From: Bacteriovoracaceae bacterium
GTDB lineage: Bacteria; Bdellovibrionota; Bacteriovoracia; Bacteriovoracales; Bacteriovoracaceae
NCBI GenBank assembly: GCA_020630335.1
Contig: JAHDBN010000005.1
Span: 78,467-142,466 of the forward strand
DNA length: 64,000 nucleotides
Reading direction: 5' to 3'
The translations under genes were made by a program, and so were the position numbers. The notes beneath the pieces were generated by a model. It did no database searches and had not been told where the DNA came from. It saw nothing but the letters and a program-made list of their open reading frames with translations. Shown here piece by piece: positions 52,879-64,000 of this stretch (the stretch's first letter is position 1; every line of letters starts with the position of its first letter).

Positions 52879-52954
52879 GCGAGTGTAGCTCAGTTGATAG
52901 AGCGTCTGCTTGCCATGCAGAAGGTCGTGGGTTTGAACCCCATCACTCGCTCCA
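52879..52954 (+). tRNA. tRNA-Gly (anticodon GCC)
   Basis: A 76-base tRNA with a 7-bp acceptor stem (GCGAGTG/CACTCGC), encoded CCA end, and a 5-bp anticodon stem (TCTGC/GCAGA) holding the loop TTGCCAT, so the anticodon is GCC for glycine codons GGC/GGT. The T-arm has GTTTGAAC. A TATATT at 52855-52860 is a possible -10 box. The gene is complete and is the likely attachment site of the adjoining element, whose integrase gene begins 115 bases beyond and is read toward the tRNA. Confidence 0.96.
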
Positions 52955-53069: not shown

Positions 53070-54152
53070 TTAGAAACTTCCAAGGCTTGTGCACACGTTT
53101 TGCACATCTTTTGAAGCTACATGAATATACCGTAAAGTGGTTTTTATGTTCTTATGACCAGCAATTTTTTGAACTTTAACAATGTTTATATCTTTTAAAA
53201 CCATCAAGGTAATCGCCGTATGTCTAAGATCATGAAACCGTATTTTGGGAACCTTGGTATGCAATAAATCATAAACAAAGACTCTACTCGTGAAATTGTC
53301 ATGATTTATCGCTGTACCGACAGATGTTTGAAAAAGCAACTCACCTTGGTTGAGTCCTAGCTCATGGATATAATTTTCCAAGGAACCTTTAAGCTCATTG
53401 CTAATTGGAACAAACCTTATGTCCTTTCCCTTCGTTGGAATAAAGCCAGATTTATCTTTTTTTCTTTGCCTGGCAATGTGAAAGCCACTTAAATCTAAGT
53501 CAAGATCTTTAACCCTCAAGGCCCAAAGCTCTCTTCCTCGAATAGCAGTTTCCAGACTTATCCAATATACATACAAAATCCATTCCTTCTCACTACTTAA
53601 GTATTTTTCTTTTGTTCGTCTCAAAAACTCTAAAGCATACTTTTTGCTCCAATACCTTGTGGCTTTCTTCACCTCTTTCATCTTTTGGTAACCCTCCGTG
53701 GGGTTGTAACTAATTTTCTTTTCTTTAAAATAAAAATTAATCACCCTGCAAAGAATACTGACATATCTATTTTGCGTAGAAATCGAAATTCCATCTTTTT
53801 GCAAAGATGAAGCGATTTTTCTTAAATAAACAGGGGTAAATTCAGATATCGGTTCGCTGCCATATTTTGGCAACAGTCGTGTTCGGCATGGATTAATTAC
53901 TCTGAAATATCCATCTGTAAAAGTTCCACCTTTTTCGCTAAGCCAATAATCAAATGCATGATTTAAAGATAATTTACATGGATCAATGCTTTCTTCTTGA
54001 GAACTCCTCTTAGAGAAACTATCAAGAAAAAGAATTGCTTGTGATTTCTTATTAAATCTTCTGCGGATTCTTTTACCTGAAAACTTATCTTTCCTTAAAT
54101 AAACCTCGTACTTATGCTTGCCATTAGCCAGCGTTATTTTTTTTATCGCCAT
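53070..54152 (-). CDS. tyrosine recombinase/integrase of the element
   Basis: A 360-residue integrase with an N-terminal arm-binding/AP2-like region (about 1-45), a core-binding domain (60-160) and a catalytic domain (165-350). Catalytic residues: Arg205 in TAIRGREL, His307 and Arg310 in HDLRH, His333 in AGHKN and Tyr342 in LRYIHV. It is read toward the tRNA, the common orientation for tRNA-targeting ICE and phage integrases. The gene for a likely excisionase lies 12 bases upstream in the same transcript. It would catalyse insertion into tRNA-Gly and excision with Xis. Confidence 0.92.
   Translation of the reverse strand: MAIKKITLANGKHKYEVYLRKDKFSGKRIRRRFNKKSQAILFLDSFSKRSSQEESIDPCKLSLNHAFDYWLSEKGGTFTDGYFRVINPCRTRLLPKYGSEPISEFTPVYLRKIASSLQKDGISISTQNRYVSILCRVINFYFKEKKISYNPTEGYQKMKEVKKATRYWSKKYALEFLRRTKEKYLSSEKEWILYVYWISLETAIRGRELWALRVKDLDLDLSGFHIARQRKKDKSGFIPTKGKDIRFVPISNELKGSLENYIHELGLNQGELLFQTSVGTAINHDNFTSRVFVYDLLHTKVPKIRFHDLRHTAITLMVLKDINIVKVQKIAGHKNIKTTLRYIHVASKDVQNVCTSLGSF
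53088..53106. repeat. second TGTGCA pair, inside the integrase 3' end
   Basis: Read on the minus strand, TGTGCA-N5-TGTGCA with the same 11-base phase as in the palindrome at 53035-53055, about 50 bases away. It overlaps the last codons of the integrase gene. The pair of sites fits a protein-binding array at the attachment region. Confidence 0.5.
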
Positions 54153-54164
54153 AAAATCTCCTTT

Positions 54165-54431
54165 TTAATAAAAGGGATTTTCTTGGAGAACCCATTTCTT
54201 TAAGATTGACTTGCTTAAAAATAACTTTCCACCAATCTTTAGAAATAGCTGTTTTGGTATCCTTCTCATCTCTCCTCTATATCTCCAATCATAAATTGTT
54301 CCTACTGGAATCCCAATTTTTTTGGATAAATCTGAGGGTGCTATCACTTCTGGTAAATTTTCAAAGAGCTCATCAAAGCCACTTCTAGCTTCTGTATCAT
54401 TATATTCTTTTTTCTTATTATTGTCTTTCAT
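54165..54431 (-). CDS. excisionase-like helix-turn-helix protein (AlpA/MerR-type)
   Basis: An 88-residue protein. The first 30 residues are charged and probably disordered. The rest is a winged helix-turn-helix of the AlpA/helix-turn-helix_17 type: VIAPSDLSKKIGIPVGTIYDW, then a wing with RRIPKQLFLKIGGKLFLSKSILKKW. This is the size and position of an excisionase that directs excision or regulates the integrase. AAGGAG precedes its ATG. It is encoded next to the integrase, as usual. A purely regulatory role is the alternative. Confidence 0.75.
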   Translation of the reverse strand: MKDNNKKKEYNDTEARSGFDELFENLPEVIAPSDLSKKIGIPVGTIYDWRYRGEMRRIPKQLFLKIGGKLFLSKSILKKWVLQENPFY

Positions 54432-54512: not shown

Positions 54513-54818
54513 TTATACTTCTATTGCTGCCGCCTCTCCATTGAACTCTAAATACTCAATGTCTTCTCCTGCCTTATTTCTAAACTGAACTAACTTCTCA
54601 ATGCCCTCAATGAAAACCTTCATTCCTTTCTTGGCTTGAACACTAAAGTCACTCGCTTTCTTACCTTGAAGCTTCACCTTTCTCCAAACTGTTAGATCTA
54701 CACCATCAATAGAAGTAGCTATTTCAAAACGACATATGGGTGTTTGATGCTTCGTCGTATATGTGACTCTAGGATCTTTTCCAATCCTTCCTTTTATAAT
54801 TTCTTTTTTCCTAAACAT
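54513..54818 (-). CDS. small single-stranded DNA-binding (SSB-like) protein
   Basis: A 101-residue OB-fold protein. The start (MFRKKEIIKGRIGKDPRVTYTTKHQTPICRF region) matches the SSB beta-strand pattern of G-R-I-G-K-D-P-x-V and a variant of N/C-R-F-x-I-A-T. The Gly/Pro-rich acidic tail of housekeeping SSB proteins, used for partner contact, is missing. Elements often carry such a protein to coat transferred single strands in the recipient. It overlaps the unknown gene upstream by eight bases. Confidence 0.7.
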   Translation of the reverse strand: MFRKKEIIKGRIGKDPRVTYTTKHQTPICRFEIATSIDGVDLTVWRKVKLQGKKASDFSVQAKKGMKVFIEGIEKLVQFRNKAGEDIEYLEFNGEAAAIEV

Positions 54819-55272
54819 GTAATTCCTTTTTCATATTCTTTAAATTTTCTACATTCAAAACCATCCATCCTGCTCTAGAGAGTGGAACTTCACTTTCAAG
54901 ATTAGGTGTAAAGTCTTTCACGTACTCTTCATACCAACTATCTAAAATGTCATCGTGAGACCAACTCCTCTTTTTTAATCTCTCAACATCTTCATCTTTG
55001 ATTACTTCAACAAAGTATTTGAGAACTTCTTTCACGCTAATGATCCCTCCTCTATCTTTCTTATTAAGCCTTTCAAGAAGACTGAATAAACCAGTTCTCA
55101 TCTCTTCATCGTCCTTGCAATTGACTAAAAATTTAAACTTTTCTTTTTTTGAATTAACATTCTTCTTATTATTTAAATTTTTAGATTTCTTTTTTGATGT
55201 ATTTGAAGCATCAATTCCTAATTGATTCTTCAAAACAACTTCTACCTTCTCTATCTCTCTACTCTCTAACAT
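54811..55272 (-). CDS. element protein of unknown function next to the oriT candidate
   Basis: A 153-residue protein with no recognised domain. The N-terminal third is basic, with long Lys/Asn stretches suited to DNA contact (about 25-50). The rest is predicted helical, with segments SLLERLNKKDRGGIISVKEV and a Trp-containing SWSHDDILDSWYEEYVKDF. It lies just downstream of the candidate oriT, between relaxase and ssb, so a relaxosome accessory protein is a reasonable guess. Coding is supported by overlap with ssb and by its frame length. Confidence 0.55.
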   Translation of the reverse strand: MLESREIEKVEVVLKNQLGIDASNTSKKKSKNLNNKKNVNSKKEKFKFLVNCKDDEEMRTGLFSLLERLNKKDRGGIISVKEVLKYFVEVIKDEDVERLKKRSWSHDDILDSWYEEYVKDFTPNLESEVPLSRAGWMVLNVENLKNMKKELHV

Positions 55273-55327
55273 TACATACCTCCATATATACTCATTACTT
55301 ACCCCTCATCCTCACCCAACTTTTTTA

Positions 55328-55381
55328 CTTAAAGTGACTTTTCTATCGATAACTACGTTGAGAGAGGAAAGTCACTTTAAG
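55328..55381. repeat. 14-bp perfect inverted repeat, part of oriT candidate
   Basis: CTTAAAGTGACTTT (55328-55341) and AAAGTCACTTTAAG (55368-55381) are exact reverse complements around a 26-base centre that includes a TATCGATA palindrome. It lies in the 213-base noncoding gap between the relaxase and the unknown gene, upstream of the latter's start. This is the arrangement of an origin of transfer. Confidence 0.65.
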
Positions 55382-55455
55382 GGTTCTAAAAAACGTTGTG
55401 ATTCTGAGGGGTTACTGCCTATTATTTTCCCGCCTTGGACACAACTCACCAACTA

Positions 55456-55495
55456 CGCGCAGGCCTTGCAACAACCTCGCGCAGTCTATGCGCAG
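55456..55495. repeat. three phased (C/T)GCGCAG repeats, part of oriT candidate
   Basis: CGCGCAG at 55456, CGCGCAG at 55478 and TGCGCAG at 55489 (start positions), so spaced 22 and 11 bases, i.e. whole helical turns. The tract is markedly richer in G+C than the surrounding DNA. The third copy overlaps the relaxase stop codon region. Phased repeats near a relaxase are typical of relaxase or accessory-protein binding. Confidence 0.6.
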
Positions 55496-56217
55496 CTTCC
55501 TAAGATTTTTCCCAAATCATTTATTTCCTTTAGTTCCCCCAAGTATTCAATTTTTAGATTTTCGATACATTCATGAAGAACTTGATTCTTTATTTCAAAA
55601 TAAATAAACTTCTTCACAGTTCCGCCATGAAGCAACTCAAAGTGATTAATGTAACTTTTCTTAACTCCCTCTGATGTGAAAAACCAAAAAACTGTGTCGA
55701 TTTTTTTATCTTGAAGATATCTTTCATATTTGCTCTCAATCCTATTTTTAGACTTTCGAGTAATCTCTAATTCAATGGCTATACTTAGTTCTTTTCCCTG
55801 ATGATTTGTTTTAATTAAGCCATCAGGAATGACTTGATTTTTTGATCTGAACTGTTGCTCTCCTTTTAACTCATGCTCAAGATAGCAAGCTCTTACACCC
55901 TTAAATTTCTCAAAGTATTGGAGTATGTGTGAGACTAAAAGGTCGTGTCTTTCATGGCCTTCAGCAACGCAATCATAACTCTCATCTGGCTTTAGAAAAT
56001 CTTTTCCTTTCTGGGAGAGATAAGCGTACTTTCGGCCTCTATTAAAATCCCTTGTTGTTTTAATTATTCCAGAGCGCTCTAATCTGTTTAGTTTTTTCCT
56101 AAAGGCCGAGTCCGAAAAAGGATAGCCTGCAATAAGTCTTAAGCTTTTAAAATCTAAAATTCTCCATTTTAAAAGGGGTTCTAAGAAGTTAAGGTCGCTT
56201 AGTTGAAACCTCATCAT
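55486..56217 (-). CDS. candidate MOB-C (replication-relaxation/PD-(D/E)XK-like) relaxase
   Basis: A 243-residue protein. The N terminus (about 10-75) is a winged helix (LRLIAGYPFSDSAFRKKLNR; LSQKGKDFL). The C-terminal part has a PD-(D/E)XK-like core: a glutamate in YLEHELK (Glu114), VIPDGLI (Asp132) and IAIELEITRKS (Glu149/Glu151, Lys155). This is the layout of the replication-relaxation (PF13814) family, which includes the MOB-C relaxases related to restriction endonucleases. It overlaps the coupling-protein gene by four bases and borders the oriT candidate. No HUH relaxase is seen elsewhere in the window, so this is the most likely nickase; its tyrosine-free mechanism would be as described for pAD1 TraX. 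Confidence 0.68.
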   Translation of the reverse strand: MMRFQLSDLNFLEPLLKWRILDFKSLRLIAGYPFSDSAFRKKLNRLERSGIIKTTRDFNRGRKYAYLSQKGKDFLKPDESYDCVAEGHERHDLLVSHILQYFEKFKGVRACYLEHELKGEQQFRSKNQVIPDGLIKTNHQGKELSIAIELEITRKSKNRIESKYERYLQDKKIDTVFWFFTSEGVKKSYINHFELLHGGTVKKFIYFEIKNQVLHECIENLKIEYLGELKEINDLGKILGSCA

Positions 56218-57674
56218 ATAATCGCCTCCTTGCTTTCTTCTTCTAGTTTTTTTCTTTTCTCCCTTGCGTACTTAATCATTGGGCTCACTTTCTCAACCCT
56301 CCATAATTGATTTCTCCACCTCGCTTCTTCATATCTAAGGTTGATTATCTTTTGCATTTTAGGACTAAAATTCACATGCACGCACTGCCCAACTTTTAGA
56401 TTCCTAATGATGTTTGGATCTAAAATAAACTGTTGAACTTTTCTCGTAGAAGTCATCCCGGTACTAACCCCATCTTCTTGAACAGACGTAAGCTTTTCAG
56501 TTTCTAGAGTTCCAATACTCTGAGCTAGAAACGTTGTCGCTTCGGGGATCATTTGCTTTAAGATAAATAAATTATTGCAATTCTCTATTACTCTTTTACA
56601 AAATGTAGGATGAACAACTTCTAAATCTGCTAGAGTTTGAACCGCCATGGTTAACTCCATTCCAGAACCTCTACACTTATTTAGAAGCTCCATAAATTCT
56701 TCCATCGCCACTGAGCCGAACTCATCAAAAATTACCGAGACTGGTTTAAACTGCTTTCTTACCTCGTCAGTTTGAGATAAATACCAATAAGAATGATGAA
56801 GAAAATCACCTAAGAAGATCTTTCCAAGCGCTTTCGCGGTATCAGCATAACCTTGAGTTGAAACTCCTATGTAGAGACAAAAATTATTCTTTCTTAGATC
56901 TGAAACACTTATTCCTCCATCTGTATTTAGCATCTTTCCGTAATCAGACTTACTAATTCTTTTGAGTTTATTAATGAGCCCTTTGATGTTGAGCTTATCT
57001 TTTCTCTTATCTAAGATTTCAAGGATGCGATCGAATCTAAATTCAATGTCTCGCTCTTTTAAAATCTCTAAAGTTTCTTCTAGAGCTTCAGCACATTCTT
57101 CTTTATAAAACTCCTCACTCCAATTAAACGCTCTCATGATTCTATCTGTTACCTGATTTATGCTTCCATCCTTGATTGGATTTACTGCAAAATGCTCAGC
57201 TTCAAACTCACTAAAAGCATAAGTCGGCATCCCGTATCCTCTACATAAATCTTTAAACATCTGATACGAATCTCTATCCGCCTTTGGATCTAGAAAAATC
57301 ACTGGTCTTTTGTTTCTAAGAGCATCTCTGATCATAAGATTGATTAAATTGGTTTTCCCGGCTCCACTTGCTCCAACGATAAATGAATGCTTAGACGTAT
57401 CAATATCTTTAAATGGAATAACTTTTTTTGTACTGCAATCCACTCCTAGAGCTTGATAGTTATTAGTTTTTTTATTACACGTAAGAGCTTTTAATCTTAA
57501 AACCTTTGGTTTTCCTTGAAGCCCAGTAAAGATCTTGGGAGCAATCCATTTTAATAGATGAACGCATCCATTCACACTCGCTATAGCGATGTCTTCAATG
57601 AGATCGCAGAGCTGAAGCATCATTTCATCAATGAAGGTTTCACCTTCTGCTCTTTTGATTTTTTCTTTATTCAT
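56214..57674 (-). CDS. type IV coupling protein (VirD4/TraD/TraG-type ATPase)
   Basis: A 486-residue P-loop ATPase. Walker A GASGAGKT is at 101-108, Walker B in VIFDEFGSV near 310-318, and an ELTMAVQTLADL segment follows. TraD/TraG-type signatures (KCRGSGMELTMAVQ; ENCNNLFILKQ) are clear. It couples the relaxosome to the secretion channel. The usual N-terminal pair of membrane helices is not evident: residues 1-95 contain only a weakly hydrophobic stretch (28-50). It may therefore be soluble or rely on a partner for membrane contact. It overlaps its neighbours by four and eight bases. Confidence 0.85.
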   Translation of the reverse strand: MNKEKIKRAEGETFIDEMMLQLCDLIEDIAIASVNGCVHLLKWIAPKIFTGLQGKPKVLRLKALTCNKKTNNYQALGVDCSTKKVIPFKDIDTSKHSFIVGASGAGKTNLINLMIRDALRNKRPVIFLDPKADRDSYQMFKDLCRGYGMPTYAFSEFEAEHFAVNPIKDGSINQVTDRIMRAFNWSEEFYKEECAEALEETLEILKERDIEFRFDRILEILDKRKDKLNIKGLINKLKRISKSDYGKMLNTDGGISVSDLRKNNFCLYIGVSTQGYADTAKALGKIFLGDFLHHSYWYLSQTDEVRKQFKPVSVIFDEFGSVAMEEFMELLNKCRGSGMELTMAVQTLADLEVVHPTFCKRVIENCNNLFILKQMIPEATTFLAQSIGTLETEKLTSVQEDGVSTGMTSTRKVQQFILDPNIIRNLKVGQCVHVNFSPKMQKIINLRYEEARWRNQLWRVEKVSPMIKYAREKRKKLEEESKEAII

Positions 57675-58167
57675 AAGTCACCTCGTAAGCTTTGAAAGGA
57701 TCAATTTGTATTGTCTTATCCCCGTACTCAATCGTTTGAGCTTTAGTTTCGTATTCAATAACGTATTGCTTTCTAGCTTTTCCTTTTAAATGTTTTGGTA
57801 GTTTTTGAGTTGGTACTTCGTATTTTTTAAGTGGCTTAAAAGTTACTTTTGGCTTAATGCCCTTTAATTCTTCAGAGAACTCAAAGATAGGAAGACTTGT
57901 TTTCGCTTCATTGATAAGCTTCATCTCTTTTTCTTTTTTTATTTCTCTTGGATCTTTATAGATATAATATCCAGCCCCAGCACCTAAGGCAGCTCCTATA
58001 GAGCCAAATAAAAATGCGTTTTTAGACTTGTCCTCTTCGTTTGGTGAAAACACAGAGCCACCAACTGAAGCTGCTATGCTACCAAGGATTGCTCCAGAGA
58101 TGATGTTTCCTTTTAGGCTTGAGCAAGATGAAAGTGATAAAGACAAAATAAATATTAGATACTTCAA
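57667..58167 (-). CDS. glycine-zipper lipoprotein in the place of VirB11
   Basis: A 166-residue lipoprotein (Cys15 in SLSSC). Two Gly/Ala-rich zipper segments (about 20-40 and 50-70; GAILGSIAASVGG, GSIGAALGAGAGYY) suggest membrane insertion or oligomerisation. The C-terminal half is charged and beta-prone. It sits between the VirB10-like and VirD4-like genes where virB11 would be expected. A VirB7/TraV-like core lipoprotein is the best guess; no sequence identity can be shown. Confidence 0.6.
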   Translation of the reverse strand: MKYLIFILSLSLSSCSSLKGNIISGAILGSIAASVGGSVFSPNEEDKSKNAFLFGSIGAALGAGAGYYIYKDPREIKKEKEMKLINEAKTSLPIFEFSEELKGIKPKVTFKPLKKYEVPTQKLPKHLKGKARKQYVIEYETKAQTIEYGDKTIQIDPFKAYEVTYE

Positions 58168-58886
58168 TATTGAACCTCCTTGTTAAAATAAATTAAAACT
58201 TCTTTTCCTGAATTGATTTGAACCGACTCAGACTCATCTACTTGATTTTTAAGATAATCATCAGCACTGCTATCTAGCACTCCAGATACTCCCTCGATGC
58301 TTTGATTTCTTATGGTTTGATCAATGACTGCTCCTCTATCAGAGTTAACCCTCGTTTTTGAATACCCAAGTACTCCTCTTCCAAAAGCTTTTAATCCTTC
58401 AATAATAGAGCTTCCTACTTTTCCAGAAGTGTACTTTCCTTTTAGGCCAAGTGATCCATCTAGGGATAAAATCTTCGCATTAATCTGAATGTCCTTACTA
58501 GGAGTTAAAAGAACAGAGCAAGTAAGATTCGCTCTTTTTGATACTCTCTTAGCACTACATAAAAGCCTTGATCCTTCTAGTTTAGAATTTAGAACTTCTA
58601 TAATTACAGGGGATCCTGCCTGAGAAGTAGTGATTGAGTTTAAAAGCCTTCCTTTGATAATGCTTCCTACTCTTAATCTCGCATCTTCAATAACTAAAGG
58701 AGTGCTGTCCATCTCAGATAAGAGCTTTCTCATTTTTTCTTTTGATTCTTGGATTTTTAATAAGGCATTTAAATCAACTACTTCTTTTTTTACTCTAGAG
58801 ATCTTTCTTTTCTTTTTCTTCTTAGCTATTAAATTAAAATTTGAGGCGTAAAGATTGGTCATTAAGATTAAAACTAAATACTTCAA
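58164..58886 (-). CDS. VirB10/TraB/TrbI-like protein, short form with signal peptide
   Basis: A 240-residue protein with an N-terminal signal-like segment (MKYLVLILMTNLYAS) and a basic KKKKKRK stretch. The VirB10-type domain is at about 70-240: GSIIKGRLLNSI, a Cys pair (LLCSAKR...LTCSVLL), then NAKILSLDGSLGLKG and the ending INSGKEVLIYF. Usual VirB10 proteins have about 380-450 residues with a cytoplasmic tail, membrane helix and Pro-rich linker; here these are missing, so it may not span both membranes. It overlaps both neighbours by four bases. Confidence 0.68.
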   Translation of the reverse strand: MKYLVLILMTNLYASNFNLIAKKKKKRKISRVKKEVVDLNALLKIQESKEKMRKLLSEMDSTPLVIEDARLRVGSIIKGRLLNSITTSQAGSPVIIEVLNSKLEGSRLLCSAKRVSKRANLTCSVLLTPSKDIQINAKILSLDGSLGLKGKYTSGKVGSSIIEGLKAFGRGVLGYSKTRVNSDRGAVIDQTIRNQSIEGVSGVLDSSADDYLKNQVDESESVQINSGKEVLIYFNKEVQY

Positions 58887-59338
58887 AATCTAACCTCCTT
58901 GTTGTTAATAAATAATCTCGCCCCTTTTGATACGTATGTTCTCTTGTTTATCTTTTTATTATTTACACTGATATTCTCACCTAAGACTTTTAGAGATGTA
59001 CTGCCTTCAAATACTTTATAATTAGCGCCTTCTAAAATTAGTTTATAAGCTCTATTAATTATCCCGTGCTTTATATCTAAGAAACCATCAGAAGATTTTG
59101 AGAACCTCAAATCAAAAGCGTATTTCCTCTTCCTCGTTACAACTAATAAATTTGATGGATTAAAATCTTTTTTAGCTTTTAAAACTAAAGTTTTATTGTG
59201 GTGAGCTTTATTAAAGTAAATATCAGATTGCTTCCCGCCATAGATATAGCTGATAATTTCAGAATCAAAGCTTAAAGTCGTTAAGCTTTGATTTCCAACT
59301 AGAATTAAAATTACTGAGCCTAGTAAAGAGTAAATCAT
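58883..59338 (-). CDS. VirB9/TraK-like N-terminal domain protein
   Basis: A 151-residue exported protein. The region about 20-90 matches the N-terminal beta domain of VirB9/TrbG in strand pattern (LSFDSEIISYIYGG; KTLVLKAKKDFNPSNLLVVT; RKYAFDLRFS, comparable to the HVLVKP...TNLVV.T..R.Y segment of VirB9). The C-terminal VirB7-binding domain of ordinary VirB9 (about 250-290 residues) is absent. Overlaps virB8-like and virB10-like genes by four bases. Weak similarity, supported by gene order. Confidence 0.58.
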   Translation of the reverse strand: MIYSLLGSVILILVGNQSLTTLSFDSEIISYIYGGKQSDIYFNKAHHNKTLVLKAKKDFNPSNLLVVTRKRKYAFDLRFSKSSDGFLDIKHGIINRAYKLILEGANYKVFEGSTSLKVLGENISVNNKKINKRTYVSKGARLFINNKEVRF

Positions 59339-59787
59339 AACACCTCCCTAGGAGTAATTTGATCCACACTATCAATGACTGAGCCGAGGGTTTGATCTTT
59401 TATAAACCCAACTCTAAATAAATAAGTCTTTTCATCTGAAAGAAGCAAGACTAAACAGGATTCGTCTTTCATGCCAATTGATTTGATTCTAAATGGATCA
59501 ATCACAAAGGGGCGCTCTGCTAAAATATCTCTAAGTCCGGTAGATAGAAAAACTGAATCATTTTTATCAGTAACTATGTCTTTGAAACCTTCCTCACAAA
59601 TGGCTTCAATTGCAGGTAGCTTTGATAAAGCAGGTGATAAATTAATAAATCTCTTCTCTTTTGCCCAGAAGACGTAGCCAATTCCAATGACAGCAATGAT
59701 GAAAAGAATCGTCATTACAAAAAAGCCGTATTTAAAAAATCTTGATTCTTTTGAGTATAGCTCTTCAATAGTATTTACTTTTTTCAT
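59335..59787 (-). CDS. VirB8/TraE-like inner-membrane protein
   Basis: A 150-residue bitopic protein: short cytoplasmic start, one membrane helix (about 21-43, FFVMTILFIIAVIGIGYVF), and a periplasmic domain of about 105 residues with two cysteines (near 64 and 109). VirB8 proteins have about 220-240 residues, so this is short. Identity rests on topology and on the position between the VirB6-like and VirB9-like genes. Sequence match is weak. Confidence 0.55.
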   Translation of the reverse strand: MKKVNTIEELYSKESRFFKYGFFVMTILFIIAVIGIGYVFWAKEKRFINLSPALSKLPAIEAICEEGFKDIVTDKNDSVFLSTGLRDILAERPFVIDPFRIKSIGMKDESCLVLLLSDEKTYLFRVGFIKDQTLGSVIDSVDQITPREVL

Positions 59788-60602
59788 CTCTTAACTCCAA
59801 TTGATCTAGACACTCTTGATCCAACTGATCTCATCTTGCCCATAGCTCTTGGTGTCCATTTATAAGTATTGCTTCCTCCTTTTAGGTTTAGACTTGAAAA
59901 GCTTGTCCCCGATGCTGAGATATTTGAATCTTTAATTAATGAAAAGGTGAAAGCTGGAGCAATAAGCATTAATAGATTTACTCCAAATAGCCATAAGATT
60001 TTTTCAATTCCATTTAGAGCAGAAGTCTCAGAGAAATTAATAGCATTTCCAATGATTGCTATAATACAAATCAAGATAAATGGAAGAGTCATGCACCATA
60101 CACTTGATCTGATCATTCCATTAATTGAGCCTTTAAAACCGGCTAGATAAAACACTGCACTTAATCCACTAAAAACATAGGTTAAATGAAAAACTGAGCT
60201 ATAAATAAGCTTTAGTAAAAATGAAAATATTCTAGAGAGAAAATAAAAAAAGTTCGCAACTAAATCCTCAAACCCACCCAGAAGAGTTTCAAAAAGATTT
60301 TTATTTTCTTTCTCACTCTTTGCTACTCCAAAGAACTTATTATTTGGACTAATCTTATTTAAAAGCTCTGTTGAAGTTTTTAAACTCATCTTCACTGCCT
60401 CTTGGTGAAACTTTGGAAAATAACTTAAAAAAAGTACTGAGATGATTAATGCCTTTAATACTCCTATAAAATCAAAATTACTTAAGTATTCCTTGATTAA
60501 AGCGATTCCAAAGGCAGGAAAGATCAATAGCCTTGAGATACTTTTTAGTTCAGTAAATAGCTTTTCAATGGAAGGCTCATTAATAAGTAAAATTTCTTCC
60601 AT
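59784..60602 (-). CDS. VirB6/TrbL-like polytopic membrane protein
   Basis: A 272-residue protein with five or six membrane segments (near 22-40, 48-66, 115-160 probably two, 165-190, 210-230). The basic C-terminal tail (KWTPRAMGKMRSVGSRVSRS) should be cytoplasmic. Size and topology fit VirB6 in the mating-channel inner-membrane part. It overlaps its neighbours by four and one bases. The family call depends on gene order. Confidence 0.68.
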   Translation of the reverse strand: MEEILLINEPSIEKLFTELKSISRLLIFPAFGIALIKEYLSNFDFIGVLKALIISVLFLSYFPKFHQEAVKMSLKTSTELLNKISPNNKFFGVAKSEKENKNLFETLLGGFEDLVANFFYFLSRIFSFLLKLIYSSVFHLTYVFSGLSAVFYLAGFKGSINGMIRSSVWCMTLPFILICIIAIIGNAINFSETSALNGIEKILWLFGVNLLMLIAPAFTFSLIKDSNISASGTSFSSLNLKGGSNTYKWTPRAMGKMRSVGSRVSRSIGVKR

Positions 60603-61249
60603 TACTTAACTCCTTGATAGAGATTCTTTCTTAATAAATCCACTCTTCTAGATCTAATGAGTTCTTCACTTTTAAGCTTATTGTTTCTAGCGAGTTCAAT
60701 AATCATTTGGTCTTGATTTTTTTTCATTTCAAGCTGAGTTTCAAAAATAAGCCCCGTATTCTGACTAGTGATCTGACTGACCTTTTTAAGTGATTTTGCT
60801 GAGCTTGCTTTTGAAATTTGATGACGAGCTAGTTTTTCTTTAAGACTTTGAGAATTGCCTGAGATTGCCTGAGTTTTCTTGATAAGATCTACTCTGAAAA
60901 TATTTTTATTGTACTCATCCATTAATCCTTTAATACTTTCTATGCTTGAATCAATCTCTCTAATTGATTGATTCACATCAGAGATATTCTTTACTCTCTT
61001 TTTCTCAGTTAACTCTTTAGTTAAGAGCTTGATTCTTTGAGCTTTAAATAAATGATCTTGAACAAGCTCGTTATACTCAGTAATTTTCTTGGTGTATTTT
61101 TCAGTATTGCTAACTAACTTTTCAAGTTCATTTAATTCTTTGATAGTTGTTACTAGTATTTTTCCAAGCGTGATGTTCTCCTCTCCAAGTATCGATGCTT
61201 GGATCTTAAAGCTCATGCATATTGCTAAGCCAATTAATAAAACTTTCAT
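60602..61249 (-). CDS. VirB5/TrbJ-like exported coiled-coil protein
   Basis: A 215-residue protein with a signal peptide (MKVLLIGLAICMSFKIQAS) and two long helical stretches (about 30-125 and 140-205) rich in Lys, Glu and Leu. This is typical of VirB5/TrbJ, a minor pilus component at the tip that may contact the recipient. AAAGGAG lies nine bases before the ATG. Its start lies 44 bases inside the end of the VirB4 gene. Confidence 0.7.
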   Translation of the reverse strand: MKVLLIGLAICMSFKIQASILGEENITLGKILVTTIKELNELEKLVSNTEKYTKKITEYNELVQDHLFKAQRIKLLTKELTEKKRVKNISDVNQSIREIDSSIESIKGLMDEYNKNIFRVDLIKKTQAISGNSQSLKEKLARHQISKASSAKSLKKVSQITSQNTGLIFETQLEMKKNQDQMIIELARNNKLKSEELIRSRRVDLLRKNLYQGVK

Positions 61250-63095
61250 TCTTATTCACTCCTTTGAAGTATTCAGTTTTGTATTGATGGATAATGTCTT
61301 TAAATGAGAAATGATCCTTTTTCTCATTGATATAATTCTCTATTCTTCTCGTGAAACTCCTACTGGAATTAAATAAAATAAACTCAAGCTCACTTGGGAT
61401 ATATCTAAGTATTCTCGCCTCATCTCCAACACTTAGAGTGAATTCTGAATATCTATCCTTAACTGAAGCTGAACTTTTAAGATAACTAAGTTCATGCTCA
61501 TCAATTGGTGGATTTGATATTTTTTGTCTAAATGAAAACCTATAAAAGCAGTTTTGAAAGACGACTTTTCCAAGCTTATGATTAGTAAAATCATCCAAGG
61601 ACTGAGAGATAGCTATAGCTGAGCCATCCATCTTTCTAAGCGTTCTAAAAGTCTCAGCGATGAATTCACCATTGTTTTTTAAAAACTGCCAAGACTCATC
61701 CATTAATAGAATTTTTTGTCCTTTTAAGCTTTTAAAGAATTCAACGATATAGATAATAAGTGGGCCCTTGATGTTATCTGGATACTTAGATAGCTCTACA
61801 TACAAGAGCTTTTTGTTTTCTAGAATTTGATTATTAAAGTGATCCTTAAACTCTTCAAAATGAAACTCAATTTCAGGGATGATTTCTTTTAAGCATTCTA
61901 AAAACTCATTTAATGACTTTATAGTTTCGCTAGCTCTTAGTGCTTTTAAAATTCTCCCTGAATCAAGCTTTGATAAATCAGGTAGTACTGATTTTACAAA
62001 TTCTAATAAGTACTCAGGCTTAGTGAACTGAAACGGATTAAAGGACTCAGCCAAACTCACTCCTCCAAAGTACTCAACGTTTCTAGAAAAAGAGTTTCCT
62101 AGATCTAAAATAATTACACTTGTCTTCTTATTGATTTGCTCTAGAAGAATTTTATTAGCAAGCATAGACTTACCCTCTCCACTGGCCCCAGTAATAAGTG
62201 CGTTGTAATTGGTAGAACTAGGATCGAAGAGATTAAAGCTGATTTTATTTTCTTTAGTAGTATTTAGCTTAAAACCAGCATCATGAACCCTAGGCCTATT
62301 AAGTGGAAGAAGAGAGCTTAAAAAAGATATTGGAGCTTTACTCGAATATTTAAAACTAGGAACAACTCCAGGAAGATTAAAGTAAAAATGATAACTTAAA
62401 TCTTTTCCAAGGACTTTGTATTCAATTTGCTTTTCTTTTAATTTGTGAACTGTTTGATCTATTTTTTTATTTAACAGATCTATACTTTGTGCCTTCACGT
62501 ATATAAAAGCTTCGTATTGATAAAACAAATCCTCATCTTTTTTAAGTCTCTCTAAATACACCTCGGATTCAGAAAAACTACTCTCACTATCAATATCTTT
62601 GATATCTTTGAAGAGGCTTGAAAAATGAAGCCTTCGTTTTAAATCTAGTGATCCAACTGATTTTAATTTTGGAATTGGTTTTAAGTTTAAAACGAAATCA
62701 AAGTCATTAAGTCCTGAGATTTCAATAGACTCAAAGTTTTTAAGCTCTACTATTGAATAGTAATTATGATCTATCCTATAGAAGTGATCCTTGAACTCAA
62801 TACTCTTCTTATAATCAATGAGATAGTTTTCTAGTAAAACTTTTGGGTGGATTGATTTTAAATTTATTGAGTTAATCGCTTTAGTTTTAGCGTTTAGAAA
62901 ACTTCTTTTATTAAAATGATAAATCTTTAAGATTTCTTTATTATCTCTTAAACTCGCCTCATAGCTTTGATAAATAGCATTTAGTTTATCTACTGAGTAA
63001 ATAGAATTATCGATTGGTTCTATTTCAAAGCATTGAGTGACGTTTTTCTTAAGATCACTTAATAAGTTACCACTTATTTTTAAGGGAAGAATCAT
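61206..63095 (-). CDS. VirB4-type conjugation ATPase
   Basis: A 629-residue ATPase, the energising subunit of T4SS assembly. Walker A is GASGEGKS (303-310), Walker B LLMDESWQFLKN (near 465-476), and an AISQSLDDF arginine-finger-like segment follows. The N-terminal domain (about 1-270) is recognisable (FYFNLPGVVPSF near 238). VirB4 proteins commonly have about 780-850 residues, so this is short. It overlaps virB3-like by four bases. Confidence 0.88.
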   Translation of the reverse strand: MILPLKISGNLLSDLKKNVTQCFEIEPIDNSIYSVDKLNAIYQSYEASLRDNKEILKIYHFNKRSFLNAKTKAINSINLKSIHPKVLLENYLIDYKKSIEFKDHFYRIDHNYYSIVELKNFESIEISGLNDFDFVLNLKPIPKLKSVGSLDLKRRLHFSSLFKDIKDIDSESSFSESEVYLERLKKDEDLFYQYEAFIYVKAQSIDLLNKKIDQTVHKLKEKQIEYKVLGKDLSYHFYFNLPGVVPSFKYSSKAPISFLSSLLPLNRPRVHDAGFKLNTTKENKISFNLFDPSSTNYNALITGASGEGKSMLANKILLEQINKKTSVIILDLGNSFSRNVEYFGGVSLAESFNPFQFTKPEYLLEFVKSVLPDLSKLDSGRILKALRASETIKSLNEFLECLKEIIPEIEFHFEEFKDHFNNQILENKKLLYVELSKYPDNIKGPLIIYIVEFFKSLKGQKILLMDESWQFLKNNGEFIAETFRTLRKMDGSAIAISQSLDDFTNHKLGKVVFQNCFYRFSFRQKISNPPIDEHELSYLKSSASVKDRYSEFTLSVGDEARILRYIPSELEFILFNSSRSFTRRIENYINEKKDHFSFKDIIHQYKTEYFKGVNKNESFINWLSNMHEL

Positions 63096-63334
63096 TTCTG
63101 CTCCGTATAAGGGGTTATTTCAGAGAAGTTAACCTCAAAGCTCTTTAGAATCATCACCAAGTCTAGAAAATACCTCATAAGCTTAATCACAATAAAAATG
63201 CCTAAACTTATAAAGATATTAGAAATTAAAAATAGTTGAGGAAGAACAATTGCAAAGGATAATACTCCTAGATCAATTAGATCTAATCCTAGAAACCTTG
63301 GTGAGTTGGTTAAAGACTTTGGATACTTTCTCAT
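63092..63334 (-). CDS. VirB3/TraL-like small membrane protein
   Basis: An 80-residue protein with a paired membrane hairpin (about 18-60; LGVLSFAIVLPQLFLIS, ISLGIFIVIKLM) and a conserved early P-x-F-L-G-L-type start (SPRFLGLDLID). The size, topology and location directly before VirB4 are those of VirB3/TraL. Overlaps VirB2 by four bases. Confidence 0.75.
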   Translation of the reverse strand: MRKYPKSLTNSPRFLGLDLIDLGVLSFAIVLPQLFLISNIFISLGIFIVIKLMRYFLDLVMILKSFEVNFSEITPYTEQK

Positions 63335-63582
63335 CTAACCAACCCTTTAATGAAAGTTACTATTGTCGGTGCTCCAGAAAATAAAAGTATCGCAAATACA
63401 GCCCTTATTATTTTCTGAGTAGCATCTTGTTTTCCAAACATTAATGCCGCTGCCCCAAAAGCAATTCCAGCTACTGATAAAGCTAGTCCAAGCCCCACGG
63501 ATTCTTTTCCTAAATTATCAATCGTTCCTTTAATTGATCTTGCAAATAATGGGGATGAAAAAAGAAGTAGTAACTTATTCAT
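63331..63582 (-). CDS. VirB2/TrbC-like pilin
   Basis: An 83-residue protein with a signal peptide (about 1-14, cut after LFA) and two membrane segments (about 28-50, GLGLALSVAGIAFGAAALMFG, and 58-79), the plan of the VirB2/TrbC prepilin that forms the conjugative pilus. It overlaps the gene upstream by eight bases. Confidence 0.75.
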   Translation of the reverse strand: MNKLLLLFSSPLFARSIKGTIDNLGKESVGLGLALSVAGIAFGAAALMFGKQDATQKIIRAVFAILLFSGAPTIVTFIKGLVR

Positions 63583-64000
63583 GGACTGCTCCTTTTAAAA
63601 CATAGGAATATCCGATATTTCTTTTTGTTGATTCATTCATTGACCTTGCTACTTGATGACTTTTAAGTTTTAGACTTTTTCTTAGATAAGCATATCTAAC
63701 TGATTGCGGTGAAATCTTTTGCTTATAACTATTTACATAAACAGCAAAGGTGAAAATATTTGCTGGCGCTGATCCACTGAATTGAACGATTCTCATTCCT
63801 GGATAAAAAGTTCTACTCAGCCCCTTGAGAACTAATTTCATCTCACTTGTTTCATCACCATCAAAAAATGATTCAAAACTTTTAATAGTTATATATGCCT
63901 CATCTTTACTAAGGACCTTAATATTCGCTAGCTTCTTTTTTATTAGATCAAGCAGTGGGTATTCTTTTTTATTAATTTGAAGATAAACAAAAGAAAGATC
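63575..64000 (-). CDS. element protein of unknown function, N terminus beyond the window
   Basis: The frame is open from 64000 down to the stop at 63575 (141 codons in the window). An ATG at 63841 is available but no strong ribosome site lies before it, and upstream codons (…YPLLDLIKKKLANIKVLS) read like real protein, so the true start is outside. The visible part has a basic C-terminal half (SYKQKISPQSVRYAYLRKSLKLKSHQVARS). Position directly before the pilin gene suggests a transfer-related protein. No family recognised. Confidence 0.55.
   Translation of the reverse strand, partial: DLSFVYLQINKKEYPLLDLIKKKLANIKVLSKDEAYITIKSFESFFDGDETSEMKLVLKGLSRTFYPGMRIVQFSGSAPANIFTFAVYVNSYKQKISPQSVRYAYLRKSLKLKSHQVARSMNESTKRNIGYSYVLKGAVHE

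Follow-up and report, generated by a model that had tools for sequence, protein, structure and literature searches.

An apparently reduced, VirB11-less conjugation module and a putative origin of transfer in a probable integrative element of the Bacteriovoracaceae

The subject of this report is a conjugation system found in a stretch of 64,000 nucleotides (hereafter the window) from a Bacteriovoracaceae bacterium of the phylum Bdellovibrionota (GenBank assembly GCA_020630335.1, contig JAHDBN010000005.1, positions 78,467 to 142,466). The window is part of a contig (C17) of a draft genome of 2.36 Mb that is 98% complete, and C17 runs 9481 bases beyond the window end and then stops. The system probably serves the conjugation of an integrative conjugative element (ICE) that sits in a tRNA-Gly gene, and it is read as a reduced branch of a type IV secretion system (T4SS) lineage that extends across the Bdellovibrionota. 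Conjugative T4SSs are a known kind of machine, and this lineage and its putative origin of transfer (oriT) are apparently undescribed: no description of either was found in the open literature, subscription papers lying mostly outside the coverage.

Ten open reading frames (ORFs) stand intact on the minus strand from 63582 down to 56214, in the order VirB2-3-4-5-6-8-9-10, a glycine-zipper lipoprotein and VirD4, and adjacent genes overlap by 1 to 44 bases. Direct matches to Pfam and NCBIfam profiles were obtained for four of the products: a VirB4/TraC-like ATPase of 629 amino acids (aa; 61206..63095; TIGR02746, the TraC-F-type model of NCBIfam, 6e-35), a 151-aa VirB9 consisting of the N-terminal domain only (58883..59338; PF03524 (CagX), 9e-6, profile positions 16-86 of 198; TIGR02781, 8e-7), a 240-aa VirB10/TrbI beta-barrel part with a signal-peptide-like start and no inner-membrane anchor (58164..58886; PF03743, 3e-9) and a 486-aa VirD4/TraD coupling protein (56214..57674; TIGR03743 (SXT_TraD), 2e-34; PF12696, 1.5e-11). 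No family profile matches VirB2, VirB3, VirB5 or VirB6 of the window directly, and they are identified by position and by profile-profile comparison (hhalign) with the full-size relatives described below: a VirB2 pilin-like protein of 83 aa (63331..63582; 98% probability; the relative in locus L048 matches PF04956 at 3e-5), a VirB3/TraL-like protein of 80 aa (63092..63334; 82%), a VirB5-like secreted helical protein of 215 aa (60602..61249; 96%) and a VirB6-like polytopic membrane protein of 272 aa with transmembrane segments (59784..60602; 99%). The 166-aa glycine-zipper lipoprotein (57667..58167) has an invariant lipobox cysteine and pairs with the lipoprotein of the full-size system at 99%. 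The 150-aa VirB8-like protein (59335..59787) is assigned from its topology, its position and a weak NTF2-like fold. A structure-based search, suggested for the small proteins in a preliminary description of the window, was made with this protein: the AlphaFold2 model (pLDDT 83), with one transmembrane helix and a small alpha/beta periplasmic domain, gave weak NTF2/cystatin-like matches, and VirB8 itself first appeared at rank 38 (E 0.8). Apart from VirB8 and VirB5, the identities of the genes can be read from the sequences themselves, as can the gene order and its conservation and, as discussed below, the VirB4 clade, the conservation of the oriT and the relaxase residues.

The preliminary description had reported this gene order, the overlapping starts and stops and the shortness of VirB4, VirB8, VirB9 and VirB10, all of which held up on analysis. 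The ten-gene unit goes far beyond chance, since the whole module is met with in the same order in about 30 sampled loci of Bacteriovoracaceae. That account had overlooked, however, the integrase and its tRNA site, a MOBC-type relaxase, the oriT, a 539-aa lipoprotein, the distribution of the system and its full-size relative; the whole unit spans about 53070 to 65194, beyond the window end, and is thus larger than had been stated.

As judged by ORF profiles, the order lip539-B2-B3-B4-B5-B6-B8-B9-B10-lip-D4-mobC-unk-ssb-int is found in these loci, some of which are cut by contig ends. VirB4 identity across them is about 23-69%, and the small sizes are uniform. Small-type VirB4, taken as matches with E below 1e-40 in frames that for the most part measure 607 to 700 aa, was present, often in several copies per genome, in 41 of 291 genomes of the phylum, all Bacteriovoracaceae, and in none from the other families among the 291; the bins carrying it are labelled Bacteriovoracaceae, Halobacteriovoraceae and Bdellovibrionales. 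Outside the family the best match was 8e-25, and most of the matching frames were 690 to 920 aa long. Among 72,556 plasmids, VirB4 matches were confined to fragments at about 22-28% identity, most of them TraC. The element appears to move between Bacteriovorax-type bacteria. A match in Paceibacterota (L112) lies on a 4.5-kb contig of a metagenome-assembled genome and was treated as mis-binning, and related TraC-like VirB4s of 839-923 aa, most of which form a clade of their own, occur in Omnitrophota (L139-L144).

Downstream of VirD4 follow, in order and on the same strand, a 243-aa Replic_Relax-like protein (mobC, 55486..56217), a gap of 213 bp, a conserved module protein of 153 aa to which no role is assigned (unk153, 54811..55272; present in 26 loci), a 101-aa single-stranded-DNA-binding (SSB)-like protein recognised by sequence and position (54513..54818; kept in 22 loci), a small helix-turn-helix protein of 88 aa (54165..54431) and a 360-aa tyrosine integrase (53070..54152; PF00589, 7e-20) whose homologue closes the module in more than 20 loci. 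The helix-turn-helix protein adjoins the integrase, has a homologue in L044 and may act as an excisionase. The integrase gene lies 115 bp from a tRNA-Gly (gcc) gene on the plus strand (52879..52954; ARAGORN), which would serve as the left attachment site (attL) and whose 3' half is repeated on another contig, C16; integrases of relatives also adjoin tRNA genes (L044, L055, L057, L069). Relaxase, coupling protein and T4SS all lie within one element, and together with the integrase beside tRNA-Gly they lead us to read it as an ICE.

The 243-aa protein is likely a MOBC-type relaxase of the PD-(D/E)xK type, probably with a winged-helix front part, and is predicted to nick DNA. Its match to PF13814 (Replic_Relax) is weak, just below the cut-off (24.8 against 25.3 bits; 2.7e-5), and D132, E149, E151 and K155 are kept in 48/48 homologues and P131 in 43/48. 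MOBC relaxases are known to be related to PD-(D/E)xK nucleases (PMC12857230).

A search of C17 for another tRNA-Gly 3' end gave none; copies of 50-54 bp lie on C16 at 2574, 5025, 10577 and 18901. These four stand in a row (L010) with no tRNA gene nearby, an arrangement that suggests islands accreted one beside the other. Heavy-metal genes (CusA-like RND, MerP/MerT-like and CsoR-like) are found at the contig ends (L002 5917-9480; L010 120-1090). The right end of the ICE and a metal-resistance cargo may continue on C16, because C17 breaks off within a CusA-like efflux gene and C16 opens with metal genes; the join of the two contigs is putative.

Where would transfer start? In the gap behind mobC lies a putative oriT (55299..55414, minus strand), in which an outer inverted repeat (55299-55308/55405-55414) surrounds an inner one (55328-55341/55368-55381) with a conserved loop, CTCTCAACGTAGTT, at 55351-55364. 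A scan for exact repeats found comparable inner arms in most relatives, and alignment of the sites showed that the arms vary together while the loop is conserved: in 21 loci, pairing in the inner repeat is maintained in 96.8% of cases, as against at most 47% in a slid control, and 10 of its 12 pairs have both partners changed. G-U pairs hardly occur (about 4 of 360 cells), as one would expect of a site that acts as DNA and not as RNA. The outer repeat is element-specific and stands at a steady distance, surpassing 60/60 shuffles in 19 of 22 loci. The same inner site is present behind mobC in eleven full-size loci, and a covariance model of the site found matches in 68 of 144 genomes, with no further copy in the window's own genome; no Rfam family matched the region. 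Among 20 further sites, some of them on stretches cut by contig ends, 13 lie within about 0.4 kb of mobC, several with VirD4 and without T4SS genes in the stretch examined, five lie near an integrase without detectable mobC and two have no recognised neighbour.

Could the repeat instead regulate transcription of the gene pair downstream, as an operator or attenuator? It lies in the intergenic gap ahead of unk153-ssb, and mobilisation genes are frequently autoregulated near oriT. We nevertheless consider this unlikely, as the repeat stays beside integrases where unk153 and ssb were not found (L244, L245, L247, L248) and occurs on either side of mobC, it has nested arms, a conserved loop and, as fits the DNA level, very few G-U pairs, and no run of T follows it in the window. 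The nested inverted repeat is a putative oriT and a phylum-wide candidate for a new kind of transfer-start site, and its presence in integrase elements without a detectable relaxase is what one would predict if it served as an oriT in trans. Five such elements (L232, L233, L235, L245 and L247, no relaxase being detectable in the stretch examined) are candidate non-autonomous mobilisable elements in the same bacterial family. In two single-contig genomes of another family, f6 (L242, L243), a MOBC-type relaxase and VirD4 accompany an identical oriT-like site, and no T4SS genes were recognised in 13 kb.

To which mating-pair formation (MPF) class does the system belong? All 15 small VirB4s tested match the TraC-F-type model best, far below its cut-off (120 of 567 bits). 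In the VirB4 phylogeny, which the preliminary description had named as a check, they form one clade (100/100) in two maximum-likelihood trees; its branch measures 1.6 to 2.0 changes per column, and in both trees it lies apart from the TraC of F, IncA/C and Rhodovastum (MPF_F) and from R388 and R751 (MPF_T). In the first tree the clade also excludes R64 TraU (MPF_I) and pCF10 PrgJ (FATA), which sit on very long branches (4.4-4.6), and the small VirB4s stay one group when these two are left out. Within the references used, this supports a distinct mating-pair lineage of the Bdellovibrionota that has small core proteins and lacks VirB11. The earlier proposal of a minimal, perhaps new, mating-pair class is supported in part.

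It might still be supposed that this is an ordinary MPF_F (F/SXT-type) system of a divergent host, its small sizes being due to drift: besides the TraC-F-type best matches, VirD4 matches SXT TraD, there is a TraE match for VirB8 of the full-size relative (6e-6), in some relatives VirB3 and VirB10 show weak matches to F TraL and TraB, and VirB11 is absent as in F. However, the low VirB4 scores, the VirB-like gene order, the CagX match of VirB9 and the position of the small VirB4s outside an MPF_F clade that itself has 100/100 support make this improbable. In addition, neither VirB11 nor TraU, TraW, TraN, TraF, TraH, TrbC or TraG was matched in about 60 loci by phmmer, a search of moderate sensitivity with single-sequence queries (E<=1e-3).

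At the operon head stands the 539-aa lipoprotein (63575..64000, on the minus strand and continuing past the window to L002:1194), which is kept in 28 loci. It carries a DSDGD calcium motif of TSP3 type, and TSP3_bac is matched in two relatives; no known family matches the whole protein. Its model is poor (pLDDT 71). A likeness to CDTb, a binary-toxin translocase (E 4e-4, TM score about 0.2), may reflect just a shared Ca-binding repeat and was not accepted. This large, surface-type protein with its weak fold match, and the place of the host in a clade of predators, might suggest a T4SS that secretes protein into prey as a predation weapon. Such a role is very improbable for a module that shares its locus with relaxase, oriT, SSB-like protein and integrase in nearly all cases, that is present in several divergent copies in some genomes and absent from others, and whose oriT-like site recurs in integrase-only elements.

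The reading of the system as a reduced conjugation module comes from its full-size relative, which occurs across the Bdellovibrionota with VirB4 of roughly 790-880 aa and the order A146-B2-B3-B4-B5-B6-B8-B9-B10-D4-lip-mobC. In one such locus (L077), VirB8 matches TraE, VirB9 CagX, VirB10 TrbI and VirB2 TrbC/VirB2. By hhalign, the small families pair with their positional counterparts at 82-100% probability in 10 of 11 shared positions, and the 539-aa lipoprotein has no counterpart in the full-size system. Median lengths fall from 824 to 627 aa in VirB4, from 194 to 150 in VirB8, from 240 to 156 in VirB9 and from 317 to 252 in VirB10. Small VirB9 aligns only to the N-terminal domain of full-size VirB9 (37-123 of 249). 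Full-size VirB10 mostly has a charged tail and then a long hydrophobic anchor at residues 15-65, whereas most small VirB10s begin with a short hydrophobic stretch from residue 1 that resembles a Sec signal peptide. VirB6 (272 aa) is not short compared with the median of 296 aa in full-size relatives; an extra C-terminal part of about 150-200 aa is present in VirB6 of L048, L060 and most small-system relatives and absent in the window and L043. In a full-size subgroup (L180-L185) mobC precedes the lipoprotein, the VirD4 profile recognises no coupling protein and no oriT-like hairpin was found near mobC.

VirB11, whose absence the preliminary description had noted, was found neither in the module nor in the remaining 9.5 kb of C17, where it might have lain beyond the window, and a search of the whole genome gave only matches below the curated cut-off. 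PF00437 proved uninformative for this purpose, as all genomes give matches to it, presumably in the ATPases of type II secretion and of pili. The suggestion that the lipoprotein stands in place of VirB11 is not supported, because VirB11 is missing from the full-size Bdellovibrionota systems too and these keep a homologous glycine-zipper lipoprotein after VirD4; it is better read as VirB7-type, likely an outer-membrane component in the role of VirB7/TraV.

Since the outgroups have the larger forms, a reduced branch within the Bacteriovoracia is the simplest reading, of which the tree gives no proof. That the system is a decayed, non-functional remnant, as the shortness of all the core proteins, the lack of the VirB6 extension in the window and a stop inside the VirB4 match of some relatives might suggest, is scarcely credible when no ORF of the window is broken, the genes are closely coupled, and a uniform small size across some 30 divergent loci marks it as a trait of the lineage.

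Several points weigh against these readings. The trees leave the order among the small clade, the full-size Bdellovibrionota, the Omnitrophota and the MPF_F VirB4s unfixed, so that the case for reduction is built on size and gene order. Their references cover MPF_F, T, I and FATA, and B and G were compared through family models only, the NCBIfam VirB4 models scoring far more weakly (best 5e-13 for B and 4e-9 for G) than TraC-F (2e-40). A search of the phylum with TIGR03744 for MPF_G VirB4 gave no match, nor did any positive control, and an MPF_B reference from Hymenobacter, with no intact VirB4 gene annotated, was not used. Small and full-size VirB8 pair at only 12% probability, and the VirB10 start was judged by hydrophobicity, not with a signal-peptide predictor. 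As for the oriT, pairing over 30 sites of both systems reaches 97.5%, with 9 of 12 pairs changing on both sides, in a set whose full-size sites were chosen partly by pairing, which favours this outcome; the outer repeat is weak in the window (2 of 60 in the shuffle control) and rests there on the relatives. The right end of the element is out of sight: C17 breaks off 9.5 kb after the window end, and the attachment repeats that match are on another contig.

From these sequences we infer how excision, nicking, transfer, the envelope architecture and the lipoproteins would fit together. The integrase, with the excisionase-like protein, would free the element from the chromosome, and the MOBC-type relaxase would bind and nick the nested inverted repeat just behind its own gene. 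VirD4 would then hand the strand to the channel, powered by VirB4 and VirD4 alone. VirB3, VirB6 and VirB8 would lie in the inner membrane, and VirB2 and VirB5 would form a pilus or tip. In established systems, the N-terminal domains of VirB9 make the inner ring, its C-terminal domains with VirB7 the outer ring, and VirB10 the barrel (PMC12857230). From these roles, the window machine would do without the VirB9 outer ring and rely on the lipoprotein at the outer membrane: the outer-membrane part would be cut down to a VirB9 N-terminal ring and a VirB10 beta-barrel, which the glycine-zipper lipoprotein would hold, and would have neither the VirB9 C-terminal ring nor the inner-membrane anchor of VirB10. 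For contact with the recipient the machine probably uses the large Ca-binding lipoprotein of the surface that is encoded at the operon head.

For and against, we regard as evenly balanced the wider proposal of a ninth, Bdellovibrionota-specific MPF class, in which a Bacteriovoracia branch has a working, envelope-spanning DNA channel without VirB11, the VirB9 C-terminal ring and an anchored VirB10, together with a new, phylum-wide MOBC oriT architecture copied by small integrase elements for transfer in trans. Should the window system work as read, its outer-membrane core would be unusually small among the conjugation machines of diderms, and it would reveal which parts of VirB9, VirB10 and VirB4 are dispensable. 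The work also offers a comparatively well supported candidate oriT for MOBC-type relaxases, whose chemistry is open, as TraX gave no covalent intermediate (PMC12857230), and a sequence model with which mobilisable elements can be sought. It suggests a route for gene exchange among predatory bacteria, which digest their neighbours' DNA.

How does the system compare with known ones? With MPF_F (F plasmid, SXT/IncA/C) it has in common a TraC-like VirB4, a TraD-like coupling protein, the absence of VirB11 and, in the full-size relative, a TraE-like VirB8. However, its VirB4 falls in a separate clade and is about 200 aa shorter, TraU/W/N/F/H/TrbC/TraG were not found, the gene order is VirB-like, VirB9 is of CagX type and the relaxase is of MOBC rather than MOBF/MOBH type. 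With MPF_T (R388/RP4, VirB/D4) it shares the order B2-3-4-5-6-8-9-10 and the CagX and TrbI domains, but it has no VirB11, VirB1 was not found, its VirB4 is in another clade, PF03135 (VirB4/TrbE-type domain) has no match in the window's own genome, and the VirB9 C-terminal domain and the VirB10 inner-membrane anchor are lacking. Its relaxase resembles the MOBC relaxases TraX of pAD1 and MobC of CloDF13 in its PD-(D/E)xK-type acidic residues, Replic_Relax-like front part and position beside the coupling protein gene, and differs in its weak Pfam match and in its site: pAD1 TraX is reported to bind five direct repeats that lie 70-120 bp away from nic (PMC12857230), whereas here the arms of a nested inverted repeat enclose a conserved loop. 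Finally, the full-size Bdellovibrionota T4SS (L077, L168, L174 and others) differs from the window system in its anchored VirB10, its lipoprotein after VirD4 and its operon head, where a 146-aa protein stands in the position of the 539-aa lipoprotein, whereas the ordered genes, the MOBC-type relaxase, the oriT architecture, the glycine-zipper lipoprotein and the absence of VirB11 are common to both.

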